A stretch of DNA of 39,501 bases from NCBI GenBank assembly GCA_028714515.1, contig JAQTMF010000005.1, positions 1-39,501 on the forward strand, read 5' to 3'. The translations under genes were made by a program, and so were the position numbers. Below, one piece after another: positions 11,913 through 31,116 of this stretch; within the stretch, counting starts at the first letter, position 1; each line of letters opens with the position of its first letter. The DNA is from Chthoniobacteraceae bacterium. Its GTDB lineage: Bacteria > Verrucomicrobiota > Verrucomicrobiia > Chthoniobacterales > Chthoniobacteraceae. Under the pieces are notes generated by a model, which did no database searches, was not told the DNA's origin, and worked only from the letters and a program-made list of their open reading frames with translations.

Positions 11913-11924
11913 TTATACAAATAA
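11913..11924 (-). promoter_or_regulatory. TTATTTGTATAA element, site 1 (facing Gfo/Idh gene)
   Basis: Reads TTATTTGTATAA on the minus strand, toward the gene starting at 11799, 113 bases away. It is the first of six copies in the window, and all lie in front of genes. With site 2 it forms an inverted pair, centres 45 bp apart. I infer an operator, possibly overlapping a -10 hexamer (TATAA). Confidence 0.65.
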
Positions 11925-11957
11925 TTCCCCGGCGAAAAGCGCGCCGGGTATAGGGGA

Positions 11958-11969
11958 TTATTTGTATAA
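11958..11969 (+). promoter_or_regulatory. TTATTTGTATAA element, site 2 (facing pectate lyase gene)
   Basis: Exact copy of the element on the plus strand, 49 bases upstream of the start at 12019. The DNA between sites 1 and 2 is itself an inverted repeat (CCCCGGCG ... CGCCGGG), so the whole 57 bases can fold or bind symmetrically. Confidence 0.65.
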
Positions 11970-12006: not shown

Positions 12007-12011
12007 AGGAG
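12007..12011 (+). promoter_or_regulatory. Shine-Dalgarno site AGGAG that sets the pectate-lyase start
   Basis: AGGAG seven bases before the ATG at 12019. It favours that start over the in-frame ATG at 11989 and over the very long upstream extension shown in the ORF track. Confidence 0.7.
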
Positions 12012-12018
12012 TGCTTGC

Positions 12019-13824
12019 ATGACAAGTCCCTCCCTCACAAAACACGTTTTTTCAAGCCTGGCGACGGCGGTCTGCTTGCTCGCTTCCACGGAACTCCGCG
12101 CGGCGTGGCCCACCAACGGCGGCGAAGGCGGCCGCGAAATCATGGTGACAAGCCTGGCGGAAAGCGGCCCGGGCACCTTGCAGGAAGCCCTGGAGGCCAA
12201 GGGACCGCGCATCATCAAATTTGCGGTCGGGGGGGAGATCTGGCTCAACGGCGTGCTGAAAGTGACCTCGCCCAACGTCACCATCGCGGGCGAGAGCGCT
12301 CCCGCTCCCGGGATCACGCTCATGGGAGACCGGCTCCGCTACCGGACGCACGACGTGATCATGCGCAACATTCGCATCCGCGTGGGAGCCCGGTTGGTCG
12401 GGACGAACCCGGACGGCCGGGATGCGCTGGAAATGGACGGGGGCGACGACGGCAAGACGCCCGCCTGCAATATCCTGATCGAGAATTGCTCCATCAGCTG
12501 GGCGATCGACGAAAACGTCCAGGTATGGGGGCCGAACAACCACGACATCGCGATCCGCAACTGCATCATCGCCGAAGGCTTGCGGAAATCCCTCCACCCC
12601 AAGGGCGCTCACTCCGCCGGGCTGCTCGTCAGCACGGGGAGCAATGTGGTGATCCAGGGGAATCTCCTTGCCTCCAATGATTTTCGCAACCCGGTCATCA
12701 CCTCCAACAGCGAGGCGCTTGTGGTGAACAATTTCATCTACAACCCCGGGTTCGCGGGCGTTCATTTTTACGGGCGGGACGGCAAGCTGGCTGCATCGAC
12801 GTTGCAGGTGGACGTGATCGGCAATGTCGTCAAAGCCGGTCCCGATACCCGGAAGGAATTGGGGCTGTTCCACGAAACGGGCCTGAACGCGGGCTCCAGG
12901 ATCTACTTCCACGACAACCTTTCCCTCGGCACCGAAGCCTTCAACGAGAAACAGCTTCCCAAAGGCTGGGCGCCGGGAACGACTCCGTTTGTGAACACGC
13001 CGCCGGTCCCCGTGCCGGATTACGTGAAAGTCCTTCCGGCGTCGCAGGTGATGGAAACCGTGCTGGCCAACGCGGGCGCCCGGGTGCACGACCGGGATGC
13101 CGTGGATGCGCGGCTCATCGAGGAAGCCAAGACCGGGAAGGGCTCCATCAAAGACGCGCCCACCGACCCGCGCCTGGTCGCCACTCCCGCCGCTCCGGCG
13201 GATCAGGCGGCTCCCGCCGTCAAGGTGGACGAAAACTACCGCGCCCCGCGTGCCGCCGCGCCCGCGGAGAAAGGCAAAAACATCACGCAGGAAATCGCGC
13301 CCGGAACCACCCTCGACCTGGTGTGGGTGGACGCCGTGGGGTGTTGGGTGGGGAAATACGAAGTCACCCAACAGCAATACGAGGGGATCGCCGGCAAGAA
13401 CCCCTCCACCTATCGCGGGGCCACCCTGCCGGTGGACAACGTGAACTGGAACGACGCGACCGCATTCTGCAAGAAGCTTACCGCAAGACTGCGCGAAGCG
13501 GGGCTGACCTCCAGCGGCAACGCCACGCTGCCGACCGAGCAGCAATGGTCCGTCTTCGTGGGAGACGCGAAGCTCTCCGATGCCGTTTATGACCGCTGGG
13601 CGGGCAAGCCGCTGGGAACGATGCCGGTCGGCTCCAAGGGGGCGAACCAGTATGGCCTCTACGATGTGCGCGGGAACGTCAACGAGTGGTGCGCGGAGAA
13701 AGTGCTGCGCGGCGGCGGCTGGGCGAACACCGGCGACATGACCATGGATCTTCCCTACCGGATGCGCGTCGCGCCAAATACCGGCACCTTCAACACCGGT
13801 TTCCGGGTCGTGCTTATTCCGTAG
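12019..13824 (+). CDS. Secreted PL1-type pectate-lyase-like protein fused to a SUMF1/FGE-like domain
   Basis: 601 residues. A signal peptide (VFSSLATAVCLLASTELRA, cleaved before AWP) is followed by a parallel beta-helix of the pectate-lyase PL1 type (about 25-385): TIAGESAPAPGITLMGDR, MRNIRIRVG, DALEMDGG, IENCSISWAIDENVQVWG. An Ala/Pro-rich linker (about 390-420) leads to a domain of the formylglycine-generating-enzyme/SUMF1 family (about 430-601): VGKYEVTQQQYEGIAGKNPS, LPVDNVNWNDATAFC, LPTEQQW, GLYDVRGNVNEWC, RGGGW and GFRVVL. The usual active-site cysteines after RGGSW are absent (WANTGDMTMDLPYRMRV), so formylglycine-forming activity is unlikely. The domain may instead bind a ligand through its C-lectin-type fold. 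The track's 1076-residue ORF is an artefactual upstream extension. The first gene of a tandem pair, under site 2. Lyase activity on pectin is likely but not proven. Confidence 0.85.
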   Translation: MTSPSLTKHVFSSLATAVCLLASTELRAAWPTNGGEGGREIMVTSLAESGPGTLQEALEAKGPRIIKFAVGGEIWLNGVLKVTSPNVTIAGESAPAPGITLMGDRLRYRTHDVIMRNIRIRVGARLVGTNPDGRDALEMDGGDDGKTPACNILIENCSISWAIDENVQVWGPNNHDIAIRNCIIAEGLRKSLHPKGAHSAGLLVSTGSNVVIQGNLLASNDFRNPVITSNSEALVVNNFIYNPGFAGVHFYGRDGKLAASTLQVDVIGNVVKAGPDTRKELGLFHETGLNAGSRIYFHDNLSLGTEAFNEKQLPKGWAPGTTPFVNTPPVPVPDYVKVLPASQVMETVLANAGARVHDRDAVDARLIEEAKTGKGSIKDAPTDPRLVATPAAPADQAAPAVKVDENYRAPRAAAPAEKGKNITQEIAPGTTLDLVWVDAVGCWVGKYEVTQQQYEGIAGKNPSTYRGATLPVDNVNWNDATAFCKKLTARLREAGLTSSGNATLPTEQQWSVFVGDAKLSDAVYDRWAGKPLGTMPVGSKGANQYGLYDVRGNVNEWCAEKVLRGGGWANTGDMTMDLPYRMRVAPNTGTFNTGFRVVLIP

Positions 13825-13849: not shown

Positions 13850-15022
13850 ATGTCGCGTTATTGGCCCCCCATCGCCGCCTGCGTTTTCAGCCTGGGCCTC
13901 CTGTTTTCCCAAACGGAGGTCCGCGCGGCATGGCCCACCGATGGCGGCGCGGGCGGGCGGGAGATCGTGGTGACGAGCCTCGCGGAGTCGGGGGCCGGAA
14001 CGCTGCGCGAAGCGCTGGATGCCGAGGGGCCGCGCACGATCAAATTCGCGGTGGGCGGCGAGATCTGGTTGAGCGACACGTTCTTTATCCGCAACCCGTT
14101 CGTGACGATCGCCGGGGAAACCGCCCCCTCGCCGGGCATCACCCTGCTGGGCGACCGCGTAAAGATCCGATCGCACGATGTCATTCTAAGGCATATCCGC
14201 ATCCGCGTGGGGGCAAGGAAGTCCGGCTCGAACCCGGTTAATCGCGACGCGCTGGAGGTGGACGGCAGCCCGGACGGGAAAGAGCCCAGCCACAACGTCC
14301 TGGTGGAAAACTGCTCGTTCAGTTGGGCCGTTGATGAAACCGTGCAAAGCTGGAACCCGAACAACCACGACATCGTTTTCCGCCGCTGCCTCATCGCCGA
14401 AGGGTTGCGCCATTCCATTCACCCCACCGGCCCGCGTTCCATCGGCATGGTGATCGGCCCCTCCATTCGCAACGTCCTGGTCCAGGAAAACCTTTTTGTC
14501 TCCAACGCCTTTCGGAACATCGGAATCTGGGGCGGCTCGTCGGTGGTCATGCTCAACAACGTGATTTACAATCCGGGCAACGGAGCCATCCAGTTGATGC
14601 CGGGCGATCCCCCGAAGCCGGTGGAGGTTTCGATTATCGGCAACGTCATCCTGGCCGGGCCGGATACGCAGCCGGAGTTGCGGCTGTTTGGCCCCGGCGG
14701 CGTCAGCCCGGAGTCGCGGGTTTACCTGGCGGACAACCGCGCGAGCGGCACAAAGGCTCTCGAAGAAACGGAGATCCCGGCGGGCTTGGCGGGGGGGAGT
14801 GCCGCTCCGCTTGCGGCCAAGCCGCCCGTTCCGCTGCCCCAGGGAACCGTTGTATTGAAGCCGGACGCCGTGCTTCCCGGCGTCTTGCGCCAGGCCGGCG
14901 CGCGTCCGGCAGACCGCGATGCGACGGATCGGCGCCTGATCGAAGAAGTCCAGTCGGGGAAAGGATCCCTCAAGGATTCTCCGCTCGACTCCCGGCTTCA
15001 GACAGAGCCGGATGCCCGGTGA
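13850..15022 (+). CDS. Secreted PL1-type pectate-lyase-like protein
   Basis: 390 residues, a close paralogue of the N-terminal part of the preceding protein. A signal peptide (CVFSLGLLFSQTEVRA, before AWP) is followed by the same beta-helix landmarks: TIAGETAPSPGITLLGDR, LRHIRIRVGARKSG, DALEVDG, VENCSFSWAVDETVQSWNPN. The C-terminal RDATDRRLIEEVQSGKGSLKD matches RDAVDARLIEEAKTGKGSIKD of the first copy, so both end their lyase part at the same point; only the first carries the SUMF1-like extension. It starts 25 bases after the upstream stop and is probably co-transcribed. Likely extracytoplasmic, cleaving galacturonan-type chains; substrate specificity is inferred. Confidence 0.85.
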   Translation: MSRYWPPIAACVFSLGLLFSQTEVRAAWPTDGGAGGREIVVTSLAESGAGTLREALDAEGPRTIKFAVGGEIWLSDTFFIRNPFVTIAGETAPSPGITLLGDRVKIRSHDVILRHIRIRVGARKSGSNPVNRDALEVDGSPDGKEPSHNVLVENCSFSWAVDETVQSWNPNNHDIVFRRCLIAEGLRHSIHPTGPRSIGMVIGPSIRNVLVQENLFVSNAFRNIGIWGGSSVVMLNNVIYNPGNGAIQLMPGDPPKPVEVSIIGNVILAGPDTQPELRLFGPGGVSPESRVYLADNRASGTKALEETEIPAGLAGGSAAPLAAKPPVPLPQGTVVLKPDAVLPGVLRQAGARPADRDATDRRLIEEVQSGKGSLKDSPLDSRLQTEPDAR

Positions 15023-15949: not shown

Positions 15950-15961
15950 TTATACAAATAA
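15950..15961 (-). promoter_or_regulatory. TTATTTGTATAA element, site 3 (facing secreted-protein gene)
   Basis: Exact copy on the minus strand, 87 bases upstream of the start at 15862. Its flanks extend the symmetry to ACTTATACAAATAAGT. Paired with site 4, centres 48 bp apart. Confidence 0.65.
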
Positions 15962-15997: not shown

Positions 15998-16009
15998 TTA
16001 TTCGTATAA
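15998..16009 (+). promoter_or_regulatory. TTATTCGTATAA element, site 4 (facing PEP-CTERM gene)
   Basis: One-base variant on the plus strand, 97 bases upstream of the start at 16107. It sits in AACTTATTCGTATAAGTT, a near-perfect palindrome with the central CG typical of LacI-family operators. The other five copies have TG there. Confidence 0.65.
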
Positions 16010-16106: not shown

Positions 16107-18716
16107 ATGAAAAGAGCATCTTCTATTCCCCCAAAATCCCCTCTCTTCTTCCCCCGTGTAGCACCCCTTTCGATTGCGGCCTTGATGGCATGTTGTGTCA
16201 GCGCGCAGGCCATCACCTATTCGTGGGTCGACGGCACGACCGGGAACTGGAGCGACACCGCGAGCTGGACGACTTCCGACAGCTCCGGAACGGCTCCCTC
16301 CGGCAATGACAACACCGCGGCCCTTTCGTTCGGCACGCCGGGCATGACGGCGGATTACACCGCCACCAACGACATTTCGGTCGGCGGCGCGGCGAACACC
16401 GATTTCCAGATCAACTCCCTTACCTTGACCGGCTCGAACGGGACCGCCAGCACCACGCGCAATATCGTCATTGCCAATGGCAGCAATGGCGGGACGCTGA
16501 CGTTTGCCGGGACGGGCGCTAACGTCAATCTCCTCGCCAACAATGTCACTGGCGCCAAGAACATCGCCTATGATGTGCGATCGGCCGTGAAACTGGCCGC
16601 CGATACCACGTTTACGGGGGACGGGAGCGGCTCGTTCCTGTTCAGCGGCGGGGTAAACGCGGGTGGCTATACTCTGACCAAGACCGGGAAAAGCGTCCTG
16701 ACCCTGGGTGGTGCAAACAATACCCTGGGGAATGTCCTATTGGGGGCCGGTTCGGGGAACAAGCTCGTGCTTGCCGGTACGGTGAGCAATACGCTGGGAA
16801 GCGTGACGTTGGACTGTAGCACCGCCAGCTCCGGCATTCTGGCCGCGGGCACGGGGGCGGCGGTGTCCATCGGCGCGGGCTCGGGCGATTTCATCCGGGT
16901 TGGCAGTTACAATGGCGGGGCGACCAAGGACAATCTTGCTCACAACGGCGTGCTGGACATGAGCGCCGCCTCGTCGTTCACGGCGAATGTGGGCATCATC
17001 GCGCTGGGCAATATCTATAGCAGCACCAGCGCCGCCGCGGCATCCGCCGGGGTGATTAAGCTGAGCAACGGGACGAATGACATCACCGCTGCAACAAGCA
17101 TCATTTTGGGGCAAGACGCGGGAGGCGCGGCGATCACCAAGATTCCCGTTGGCCAGATCATCGGCGGTTCCGGTGCGACAACGATCCACACACCCATCCT
17201 AACGGTGGGAACCACCTCCGGGGTGGGCCTGTTCACCCTTGATGCCGGCGGCAGCGTTACGCTGGACGGGCTTTCTGGCGGAAGAGCGGCGCTCAATGTG
17301 GGGTATTCGACGGCCAATGCCAACGTCGTTTCCACCGGCACGATGACATTGGACGGCACTTTCAAAGCCACGTTGAATTCCCTGAACATCGGATCAAAGT
17401 CGGGCAGCAGCAATCCGGGCAGGGATTTGATCGGCGTGATGACGATCGGCAATAGTGCCGCAAACCACCTGGATATCCTCGCCAGCAGCACCAACGGCGC
17501 TCTTGTCATTGGCAGCATGACGAGCAATGCCGGGTTGACCAATAACGCCAACATATCGGGCAATCTTACGATCGGCAACCTGGACGCCACCTCCGTCATT
17601 GAAAACACCAACGCCTCGGGGGTGGGTATTCTGATTGGAAATTACCAGGCGGGCGCCAATGCGAGTGGTGCCATCGGTGTCTCCTCTTCGGGGACCATGA
17701 CGATGAACGGGGGGACGCTCCTGGTCAAATCGGCGGGAACATCGGCGGCGATTCAACTGGGCCGCATCAATCGAACCGGGACGAAGGATGTGGTTTCGGC
17801 CACGCTGAATTTGCTTGGCGGGTCGCTGACGGTGAACAATGACATCACTGCGGCCGCGCAAAACGGGGCGGTCATCAGTAGCACGCTGAACATCGACGGC
17901 GGCACCCTGGATATGGGCTCGCACGCCATCGGCAGCGCCGCCGCGAATGTCACCAACCTGGTCCTCGCCAGCGGCACGCTCAAGAACGTATCGGAAATCA
18001 ACGGCGGCGCGGACATCGTCAAGACCACGACCGGGACCTTTGTCCTGGCAGGCAACAACACCTACACCGGCGCGACTTCCATTAACGCCGGTATTTGGCG
18101 TGTCAACGGCACGGCGACTTCGTCCCGCCTCACCGCCGTCAACGACACCGGAACACTCGGCGGCACCGGCACGGTGGGGGCGGTGCAGGTGAACAACGGC
18201 GGCACCATTGACCCCGGCAACGCGCACGGCAATATCGGTACTCTGGCGGTCGGGGCCACGGCGATCAAAGGCGGGGCGTCGTATCTCCTGGAGGTGGACA
18301 ATGGCGGCGGGTTGGACGGAGCGGGCAGCCATTGGGACCAATTGGCCGTCACCGGGAGCCTGGACGTCTCCGATCTGAGCGCGATCAGCCAGTTCACCTT
18401 CAAGCTCTCCAGCCTCGACATCGGGGGGGGATTGGCCGGTTGGGACGCCAGCACCGATCATTTGTGGACTTCCGTCCTCACCACCACCGACGGCTTCGTG
18501 GGTTCGCTGACCGCCGATATGTTCACGGTCGATACCACCGGATTCTTGACGAACAACTTTACCGGCACGTTCAGTATCGTGCGGGATAGCGCCAATACCA
18601 ATAGCCTCGATCTGCTCTATACCGCCGCCGTCCCGGAACCCCAAACGTGGGGATTCCTGATGCTCGGGATGGGGGCTTTCGTGTGGCGCGCCCGGGCGAT
18701 GCGCCGGATTGCATGA
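16107..18716 (+). CDS. PEP-CTERM protein with autotransporter-associated beta-strand repeats
   Basis: 869-residue secreted protein. The ATG at 16107 is chosen because it gives a signal peptide (FPRVAPLSIAALMACCVSAQA, then ITYSWVDG); the track's start at 15747 is far upstream inside the divergent gene. The body is Gly/Ser/Thr/Asn-rich beta-helix with repeats such as GGYTLTKTGKSVLTLGGANN and GTFVLAGNNTYTGATSINAG. Near the C-terminus, LTADMFTVDTTGFLTNNFTG parallels the first PEP-CTERM protein (FDANLFSIDTTGFGNTLNGG). The tail VPEPQTWGFLMLGMGAFVWRARAMRR is a PEP-CTERM sorting signal. Preceded by site 4, so it may be induced along with the pectin genes. Its role on the cell surface (adhesion, glycan holding) is inference. 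Confidence 0.85.
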   Translation: MKRASSIPPKSPLFFPRVAPLSIAALMACCVSAQAITYSWVDGTTGNWSDTASWTTSDSSGTAPSGNDNTAALSFGTPGMTADYTATNDISVGGAANTDFQINSLTLTGSNGTASTTRNIVIANGSNGGTLTFAGTGANVNLLANNVTGAKNIAYDVRSAVKLAADTTFTGDGSGSFLFSGGVNAGGYTLTKTGKSVLTLGGANNTLGNVLLGAGSGNKLVLAGTVSNTLGSVTLDCSTASSGILAAGTGAAVSIGAGSGDFIRVGSYNGGATKDNLAHNGVLDMSAASSFTANVGIIALGNIYSSTSAAAASAGVIKLSNGTNDITAATSIILGQDAGGAAITKIPVGQIIGGSGATTIHTPILTVGTTSGVGLFTLDAGGSVTLDGLSGGRAALNVGYSTANANVVSTGTMTLDGTFKATLNSLNIGSKSGSSNPGRDLIGVMTIGNSAANHLDILASSTNGALVIGSMTSNAGLTNNANISGNLTIGNLDATSVIENTNASGVGILIGNYQAGANASGAIGVSSSGTMTMNGGTLLVKSAGTSAAIQLGRINRTGTKDVVSATLNLLGGSLTVNNDITAAAQNGAVISSTLNIDGGTLDMGSHAIGSAAANVTNLVLASGTLKNVSEINGGADIVKTTTGTFVLAGNNTYTGATSINAGIWRVNGTATSSRLTAVNDTGTLGGTGTVGAVQVNNGGTIDPGNAHGNIGTLAVGATAIKGGASYLLEVDNGGGLDGAGSHWDQLAVTGSLDVSDLSAISQFTFKLSSLDIGGGLAGWDASTDHLWTSVLTTTDGFVGSLTADMFTVDTTGFLTNNFTGTFSIVRDSANTNSLDLLYTAAVPEPQTWGFLMLGMGAFVWRARAMRRIA

Positions 18717-20880: not shown

Positions 20881-21912
20881 TCAGGTCTGCGCCCGGATGG
20901 TCTTCCCATCAACCCAAGTGCCGCTGACCAGCATGCTCAGTGGCACGGTGGGGCAGCCGCATTCGTTGCGGTGGACCAGATCGACGAGAAAGTCCACGGC
21001 CTTGGCTCCGATCACGCGGGGGTTTTCCCAAATCCCGGAGTAGAAAGCTCCCTCATCGGGCACGCTGAGAAGGGAAAAACCGGTTTCCTCCGGCACCGCG
21101 ACACCCTCCGCGCGCAGCCACTCGTAAACATAAGTTCCCATGGAAATGATGACATCCGGGCGATAGCGTTGGTACCACTTCATGAACGTCGTCCGGTGGA
21201 GCGGCTGTTGCAATAGAAGCGGGATGCGGTCGCGCTGCGGCAGTTGGCGCTGGGACATCCAGAACGCGGCCGACCAGTTTCGGTCCGCGCGTTTGTCGCT
21301 CTCCAGCGCCATGGCAAGCCCCGGGCGGCGGTACCCGAGGGAGATCAATTTTCGGAACGCCGTTTCCACCGAACGGAACTGTTGCAACGCCACCAGATGC
21401 AGTTGCGGTTTTTCCAGCGTATAGCCAAAGGAGACGGCGGAAAACCGGTCAAAACAAAAGTCGAGCTGCATACCGGCCTTGGGTTGCGGCATGAGAAGAA
21501 TGCCCGGGATGTTGCGCGCCGCGAAGATTCGTTCCAGCCGGGCGCTGGTCATCCCCGGGGCCGTCAATTCATGTTCTTCCAATTGGTAGCCAAGCTCCCG
21601 CGCTCGCTCTTTTGCTCCCTCGAAGTAATTCAACAGCGTTGACTGCTGTTTCCATGGGGTGGAGGCGGGATAATTGGAAAGCCACGCCAGCGTCGCTTGA
21701 AACCGGGGGGAGCGGACCCGTTTGCGATAGGCGGAGAGGCCGGAGAGATACGGGTCGGGCTGGTATCCCATTTTTTCCGCGATTCCCTGGATGCGGGCGC
21801 GGGTCTCCGGCGAAATGCTGAAGTGATTGCTCAACGCCAGCGAAACGGTGGCTTGTGTGACGCCGGCTTTTTCCGCCAGGTCTTTTTGGGTGATTCGAGT
21901 TGCCTTTGCCAT
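20881..21912 (-). CDS. LacI-family transcriptional regulator
   Basis: 343 residues. The N-terminal LacI helix-turn-helix is clear: RITQKDLAEKAGVTQATVSLALSNHFSISPETRARI (about 5-42), followed by the hinge region GYQPDPYLSGL. The remainder is a periplasmic-binding-protein-like effector domain (from about residue 60: ATLAWLSNYPAS ... GILLMPQPK ... RPDVIISMG). It should bind a sugar-type effector and control transport and hydrolase genes. The intergenic region it shares with the propeller gene contains a TTATTTGTATAA element 89 bases from its own start. The same element occurs at three other promoter regions nearby, so this protein is the best candidate to bind it and to autoregulate. The link is inference from position. 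Confidence 0.93.
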   Translation of the reverse strand: MAKATRITQKDLAEKAGVTQATVSLALSNHFSISPETRARIQGIAEKMGYQPDPYLSGLSAYRKRVRSPRFQATLAWLSNYPASTPWKQQSTLLNYFEGAKERARELGYQLEEHELTAPGMTSARLERIFAARNIPGILLMPQPKAGMQLDFCFDRFSAVSFGYTLEKPQLHLVALQQFRSVETAFRKLISLGYRRPGLAMALESDKRADRNWSAAFWMSQRQLPQRDRIPLLLQQPLHRTTFMKWYQRYRPDVIISMGTYVYEWLRAEGVAVPEETGFSLLSVPDEGAFYSGIWENPRVIGAKAVDFLVDLVHRNECGCPTVPLSMLVSGTWVDGKTIRAQT

Positions 21913-22000: not shown

Positions 22001-22012
22001 TTATTTGTATAA
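22001..22012 (+). promoter_or_regulatory. TTATTTGTATAA element, site 5 (between regulator and propeller genes)
   Basis: Exact copy on the plus strand, 67 bases before the start at 22080 and 88 bases behind the divergent LacI-type gene start. TATAAC at 22008-22013 with TTGGCT 16 bases upstream (21986-21991) would make a fair sigma-70 promoter whose -10 box overlaps the element. Confidence 0.65.
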
Positions 22013-31104: not shown

Positions 31105-31116
31105 TTATTTGTATAA
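31105..31116 (+). promoter_or_regulatory. TTATTTGTATAA element, site 6
   Basis: Exact copy on the plus strand, 75 bases before the start at 31192 and 41 bases after the cassette A stop. Preceded by GGGG, as is site 2. It suggests that the barrel-protein gene has its own regulated promoter. Confidence 0.62.

Follow-up and report, generated by a model that had tools for sequence, protein, structure and literature searches.

The two halves of the protein described here each have known relatives. In human FGE, the catalytic triad is formed by Ser333, Cys336 and Cys341 (PMC6328139), whereas the same C-type-lectin-like FGE fold acts as a ligand-binding scaffold in the variable proteins of diversity-generating retroelements (DGRs) (PMC6328139, PMC10907252), and in the FGE subtype of these proteins the C-terminal segment is the solvent-exposed ligand site (PMC6328139). 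According to a published survey, the FGE-domain proteins of bacteria that are extended at the N-terminus (by kinase, caspase, DinB, NACHT or PEGA domains) do not have the catalytic cysteines (PMC5915273). As for pectin-degrading enzymes, both PfPL1 and PelZ belong to subfamily 2 of the PL1 family (PL1_2; PMC11229556). A gene that joins members of these two families was found in a stretch of 39,501 nt (hereafter, the window) from a draft MAG of a Chthoniobacteraceae bacterium (340 contigs, 3.24 Mb, 92.9% complete). Its product is mostly ordinary in kind, in the sense that it is a rare pairing of two common families. The features of the gene and of its neighbour are the following:

12019-13824 (+): coding sequence of the fusion gene, 601 aa, a PL1-type beta-helix plus a compact Cys-less SUMF1/FGE-fold domain; a single ORF with Pfam and NCBIfam matches
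12019-12105 (+): predicted Sec signal peptide, residues 1-29, read from the sequence
12106-13167 (+): PL1 (PL1_2/PelZ-like) parallel beta-helix, residues 30-383, according to AlphaFold, Foldseek and the alignment of 42 relatives
13168-13302 (+): Ala/Pro-rich linker, residues 384-428, by composition
13303-13821 (+): compact SUMF1/FGE-fold (C-type-lectin-like) domain, residues 429-601, according to PF03781, AlphaFold, Foldseek and its clade
13708-13821 (+): C-terminal segment RGGGW...GFRVVLIP, residues 564-601, which in FGE bears the catalytic cysteines and here is without Cys, read from the sequence
13850-15022 (+): paralogue of 390 aa with a separate signal peptide and no domain other than the beta-helix, 55% identity and a match to the PelZ model

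The fusion gene is one unbroken ORF of 601 codons, with its ATG at 12019, 7 nt downstream of an AGGAG (12007-12011), and its end at 13824. The parts listed in the initial annotation, i.e., a signal peptide, a PL1-like beta-helix, an Ala/Pro linker and a SUMF1/FGE fold, are all retained. The signal peptide, predicted by eye, has a basic n-region, a hydrophobic core and small residues before a cleavage site near LRA-AW, and no lipobox was seen in its sequence, while the linker contains 13 Ala and 6 Pro within residues 386-428. The two domains were modelled apart, without a joint full-length model, because the MAFFT joint alignment placed the SUMF1 rows over the beta-helix.

Within the beta-helix, the only Pfam match is generic (PF13229 Beta_helix, residues 142-255, E 1.4e-6), and the NCBIfam model of the PelZ pectate lyase (NF041900) covers residues 30-383 (E 4.9e-68) with 229.9 bits, far below its equivalog cut-off of 840 bits. 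The AlphaFold model (pLDDT 87.4, pTM 0.90, 44 sequences) is a right-handed parallel beta-helix closest to PL1 structures, the best PDB match in Foldseek being PfPL1 (9buj, E 1e-15), followed by VexL (6fi2, E 1e-10), Jun a 1 and PL1 pectate lyases. Given the PelZ and 9buj matches and the subfamily to which PelZ and PfPL1 belong, the PL1-like label is right. The catalytic capacity of this domain is a different question. Arg223 is invariant across the 44 aligned sequences, in the column of the ERAP Arg of PelA, so that, following the PL1 literature, it is proposed as the putative catalytic base (the Arg220/Arg235 numbering of the PfPL1 paper could not be placed on the construct printed there). 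Five residues beyond, position 228 is Thr in the fusion protein and Lys in 41 of 42 relatives, where that Lys presumably has a catalytic role. Altogether, the fusion protein carries the substitutions D155E, H156N, D206T and K228T with respect to at least 39 of the 42 relatives, and the paralogue is altered at the same four positions (Trp227 being the counterpart of Thr228), as well as at K195 and H198. Since both proteins depart from near-invariant PL1_2 positions, their lyase activity is uncertain, as is the cleavage of pectin by either beta-helix, and both may differ from pectate lyases in their substrate or their activity. Therefore, from the “secreted lyase” previously proposed, the PL1 beta-helix stands and the lyase function is left in doubt.

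The paralogue starts 26 nt downstream of the fusion gene and shares 55% identity with its beta-helix over 386 aligned residues (PelZ model, E 3.2e-62). It had been pointed out as a natural comparison without the SUMF1 domain and, in agreement with this, Pfam gives no PF03781 match in its 390 aa. The pair shows dN and dS values (NG86) of 0.39 and 1.22, respectively, which likely reflects purifying selection, although this dS is high. Further genes in the window encode members of the GH3, GH5, GH2, GH28, GH130 and GH16 families, SSF and MFS transporters, a LacI-type regulator and a PEP-CTERM/PATR protein. By this gene content, the window is a polysaccharide-use locus, and the presence of GH28 points to pectin. 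A recurrent 12-mer was found at the following sites:

11913-11969 (no strand; 11913-11924 (+) and 11958-11969 (-)): inverted pair TTATACAAATAA ... TTATTTGTATAA, a candidate operator in the intergenic region that precedes the fusion gene, between divergent genes
15950-15961 (+) and 15998-16009 (-): inverted pair of the 12-mer upstream of the PEP-CTERM gene (ATG at 16108), one arm with one mismatch
22001-22012 (-) and 31105-31116 (-): single copies of TTATACAAATAA

The five perfect copies of this 12-mer in the 3.24-Mb genome are all located in this contig, and it is probably the operator of a locus-specific regulator. A candidate for that regulator is encoded by the gene of the LacI family at 20881-21912 (-).

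The C-terminal domain matches PF03781 (FGE-sulfatase) at residues 448-598 (E 6.4e-17), with 62.5 bits over a gathering cut-off of 23.3, and contains both the GNVNEWC and the RGGGW motifs. Its AlphaFold model (pLDDT 83.4, pTM 0.85, 49 sequences) finds as best PDB match the Treponema variable protein TvpA (2y3c, E 4.3e-12), followed by CarF, PvdO (5hha), PorK, FGE and SUMF2, with E-values of about 1e-6 for the FGE structures. The profile search is in accordance with the fold matches (TvpA, E 3.5e-33; PorK/GldK also close), and the nearest viral fold match is a SUMF1-like protein of Microcystis phage LMM01. The C-lectin-type fold that had been anticipated is thus borne out, as the FGE subtype of the C-type-lectin-like fold. 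The domain boundaries, previously set at residues 430-601, needed a minor correction of the start (to about residue 429), and what they enclose is a shortened version of the fold: the Pfam match spans profile positions 69-254 only, the N-terminus has no MGSP hairpin, LPTExQW is not followed by the EYACRAG-type segment, and the loop before RGG is unusually short. Regarding the cysteines, the domain has only three (442, 484 and 558), and, whatever the alignment, there is none in the last 38 residues, which begin with RGGGW (residue 564), which means that the FGE cysteine pair is absent, as had been claimed. When aligned in the GG register, the positions of the FGE triad are occupied by Gly, Asn and Met/Thr, the human stretch being taken by us as GGS(333)YMC(336)...C(341) for the letters between the triad residues. 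Judging from these residues, the domain is unable to make formylglycine.

How exceptional is such a domain? The CxxxxC pair is missing in 71 of the 75 SUMF1 ORFs collected (a set that includes the gene of the window and overlapping loci), and in all four SUMF1 domains encoded in the genome of the window. Together with the extended bacterial FGE-domain proteins mentioned above (PMC5915273), this makes Cys-less SUMF1 domains the rule, and the surprise implied by the initial annotation was overstated. In a maximum-likelihood tree of 82 rows, the domains with a shortened segment after LPTExQW form one group, explained by one change (support 100/99; the group is set by sequence features and the tree is midpoint-rooted), and the domain of the fusion protein belongs to this compact Cys-free clade. 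Its closest compact relative, L263, has an identity of 53% (BLASTP) to 56%. The members of the clade are separate proteins with a signal peptide, the C-terminal ends of membrane proteins of the PEGA type and of a kinase-PEGA protein, and three copies in an Ig/FG-GAP protein. This location, separate or at or near the C-terminus of varied proteins, suggests a domain that is portable from one protein to another.

Some of these SUMF1 proteins deserve a mention on their own. A clade of PEGA-type proteins of about 520-565 aa with a compact Cys-free SUMF1 end (L262-L279) recurs within a single family of this class; for the ORFs of this length in L265-L278, the PEGA assignment was made by eye, with Pfam run on a comparable ORF (L256). 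A protein of 2792 aa (L261:3668-12043, +) combines Ig, FG-GAP and ASPIC/UnbV domains with three compact SUMF1 copies and a further C-terminal SUMF1 match. Finally, one sister genus (L019, L020, L022 and L024) encodes SUMF1 proteins with the CxxxxC pair in GGDWRCxPRxCRSAKR, with the FGE spacing and Asp for the FGE Ser, which are possibly true or altered FGEs.

Regarding the pairing itself, both halves are frequent among 384 genomes of the class, and the gene of the window alone covered residues 1 to 601. The same PL1-SUMF1 architecture was found in no other of about 197-213 genomes of the order, nor in any other of about 570 genomes of the class; a search in a collection of 85,000 species gave no SUMF1 domain in the lyase ORF among the best 80 PL relatives listed, and no lyase-SUMF1 fusion was found in the literature. 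The pairing is, in consequence, rare and possibly unique, and its parts are common. The gene neighbours of the copies in three other genomes (G021, G013 and G054) offered nothing informative, and the closest single-domain relative (G613) lies near genes for a mandelate-racemase-type enzyme and a xylose-isomerase-like protein, which is at most suggestive.

With an architecture known from one genome only, and that genome being a draft MAG of hundreds of contigs, could the fusion be an assembly or sequencing artefact that joins two genes? The coding composition argues otherwise: GC3 stays at 0.74-0.92 throughout the ORF, linker included, so that nothing points to two genes joined by a frameshift, as had been considered in the initial annotation. 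Furthermore, the Ala/Pro linker is in frame, the beta-helix ends as the paralogue does, ahead of the start of the linker, and the SUMF1 domain continues as far as a normal stop codon, with the next gene starting 26 nt beyond, all of which makes an artefact very improbable. A working sulfatase activator, or a SUMF2-like regulator of one, would be coherent with a PF03781 score above the cut-off and with the SUMF2 structure among the fold matches, but all three triad positions are replaced, the last 38 residues are free of Cys, and none of the four SUMF1 domains of the genome has the CxxxxC pair. The genome, moreover, encodes no FGly-type (S1) sulfatase with C/S-x-P-x-R, its sole PF00884 match resembling a phosphodiesterase and reading TLPSHTS at the position of the nucleophile. 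Sulfatase activation is accordingly rejected, as the initial annotation had already done, and its probability is close to nil. Practically the same can be said of a hypervariable DGR target: the best fold match is TvpA, and there are compact viral relatives with a variable C-terminal segment, but no reverse transcriptase (PF00078) matches anywhere in the assembly, so that diversification by a retroelement is also rejected as scarcely conceivable. At a completeness of 92.9%, the absence of sulfatases and reverse transcriptases is not absolute.

Among the functions left, ligand binding or docking by a module of C-type-lectin-like type is, in our estimate, slightly better than an even bet. A secreted PL1_2/PelZ-like beta-helix protein would have gained the compact SUMF1/FGE-fold domain at its C-terminus via a flexible Ala/Pro linker, and this domain would serve to keep the lyase part close to its substrate, to the cell surface or to another protein acting as a partner. 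Such a role fits the combination of a flexible linker and a portable domain in a secreted carbohydrate-active protein; it is also favoured by the fold and profile matches to TvpA and the ligand site of the FGE-subtype DGR variable proteins, by the Cys-free C-terminal segment in a genome without FGly sulfatases, and by the glycoside hydrolases and transporters of the locus. Secretion, binding and the ligand are inferred. Against it, the paralogue does without such a domain, the data contain no relative of the same architecture that would show conservation of the fusion, the changes at near-invariant positions in both beta-helices imply that the lyase domain may be altered or inactive, and neither a ligand nor a carbohydrate-binding signature nor a partner was found for the SUMF1 domain. 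A structural or anchoring part (for assembly, oligomerization or attachment to the cell envelope) with no specific ligand of its own would be supported by the close profile and fold matches to PorK/GldK, by the apparent membrane anchoring of the PEGA-linked relatives and by OCTIN, an FGE-domain protein without the cysteines that forms protein crystals (PMC5915273). We regard it as unlikely, given that no oligomerization or anchor signal is visible and the protein ends right after the domain, although it differs from docking mainly in degree. Another chemistry is also conceivable, since other Cys-less FGE-fold proteins (PvdO and EgtB) are enzymes. PvdO, one of the best matches by fold, is aligned without any Cys in its C-terminal segment and is nevertheless named dihydropyoverdine dehydrogenase by NCBIfam, so that missing cysteines are no proof against enzymology, and the domain might be a metal-dependent oxidase or dehydrogenase of that sort, with a small molecule or the product of the lyase as its substrate. 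However, it does not have the DinB-like partner domain found in EgtB, it is shorter than PvdO, with the N-terminal part of the profile missing, and its clade also occurs in PEGA and Ig/FG-GAP proteins, which speaks for a structural or binding role and makes an enzyme quite unlikely.

The possible binding or docking role matters beyond this locus, because Cys-less SUMF1-fold domains are abundant in bacteria, usually under misleading enzyme names. It is a speculative and rather doubtful extension that the compact ones might constitute a class of modules, so far unrecognized, that target a substrate or a surface and lend themselves to being attached to carbohydrate-active enzymes, with the fusion protein and its paralogue as the first clear example. 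In any case, a lyase with a gained SUMF1 domain next to a paralogue free of it provides a simple paired test of ligand binding, and caution is advisable, until there is an assay, before calling the fusion protein a sulfatase activator or before giving either of the two paralogues the name of an ordinary pectate lyase.

When compared to the known systems, the fusion protein shares with PfPL1 (9buj), PelZ and other PL1_2 pectin lyases the PL1 parallel beta-helix and the Arg in the ERxP position, and differs from them in its PelZ score (230 versus 840), in its substitutions at positions 155, 156, 206 and 228 and in the C-terminal SUMF1-fold domain. This domain has in common with FGE (SUMF1, 1y1e; bacterial FGE, 2q17) the fold and the PF03781 family, but not the catalytic Ser/Cys/Cys, the N-terminal hairpin or the internal segment, and there is no sulfatase substrate in its genome. 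Treponema TvpA and other FGE-subtype DGR variable proteins are its best structural and profile match, and the compact phage relatives resemble it in the very short loop before RGG; unlike TvpA and the DGR variable proteins, it is attached to a lyase, in a genome without a reverse transcriptase. The compact Cys-less SUMF1 proteins of related genomes (for example L263, L262 and L265-L278) belong to the same clade and have the same shortened segment after LPTExQW, but whereas these are separate secreted proteins or are combined with PEGA, kinase or Ig/FG-GAP domains, the domain described here is joined to a beta-helix lyase.
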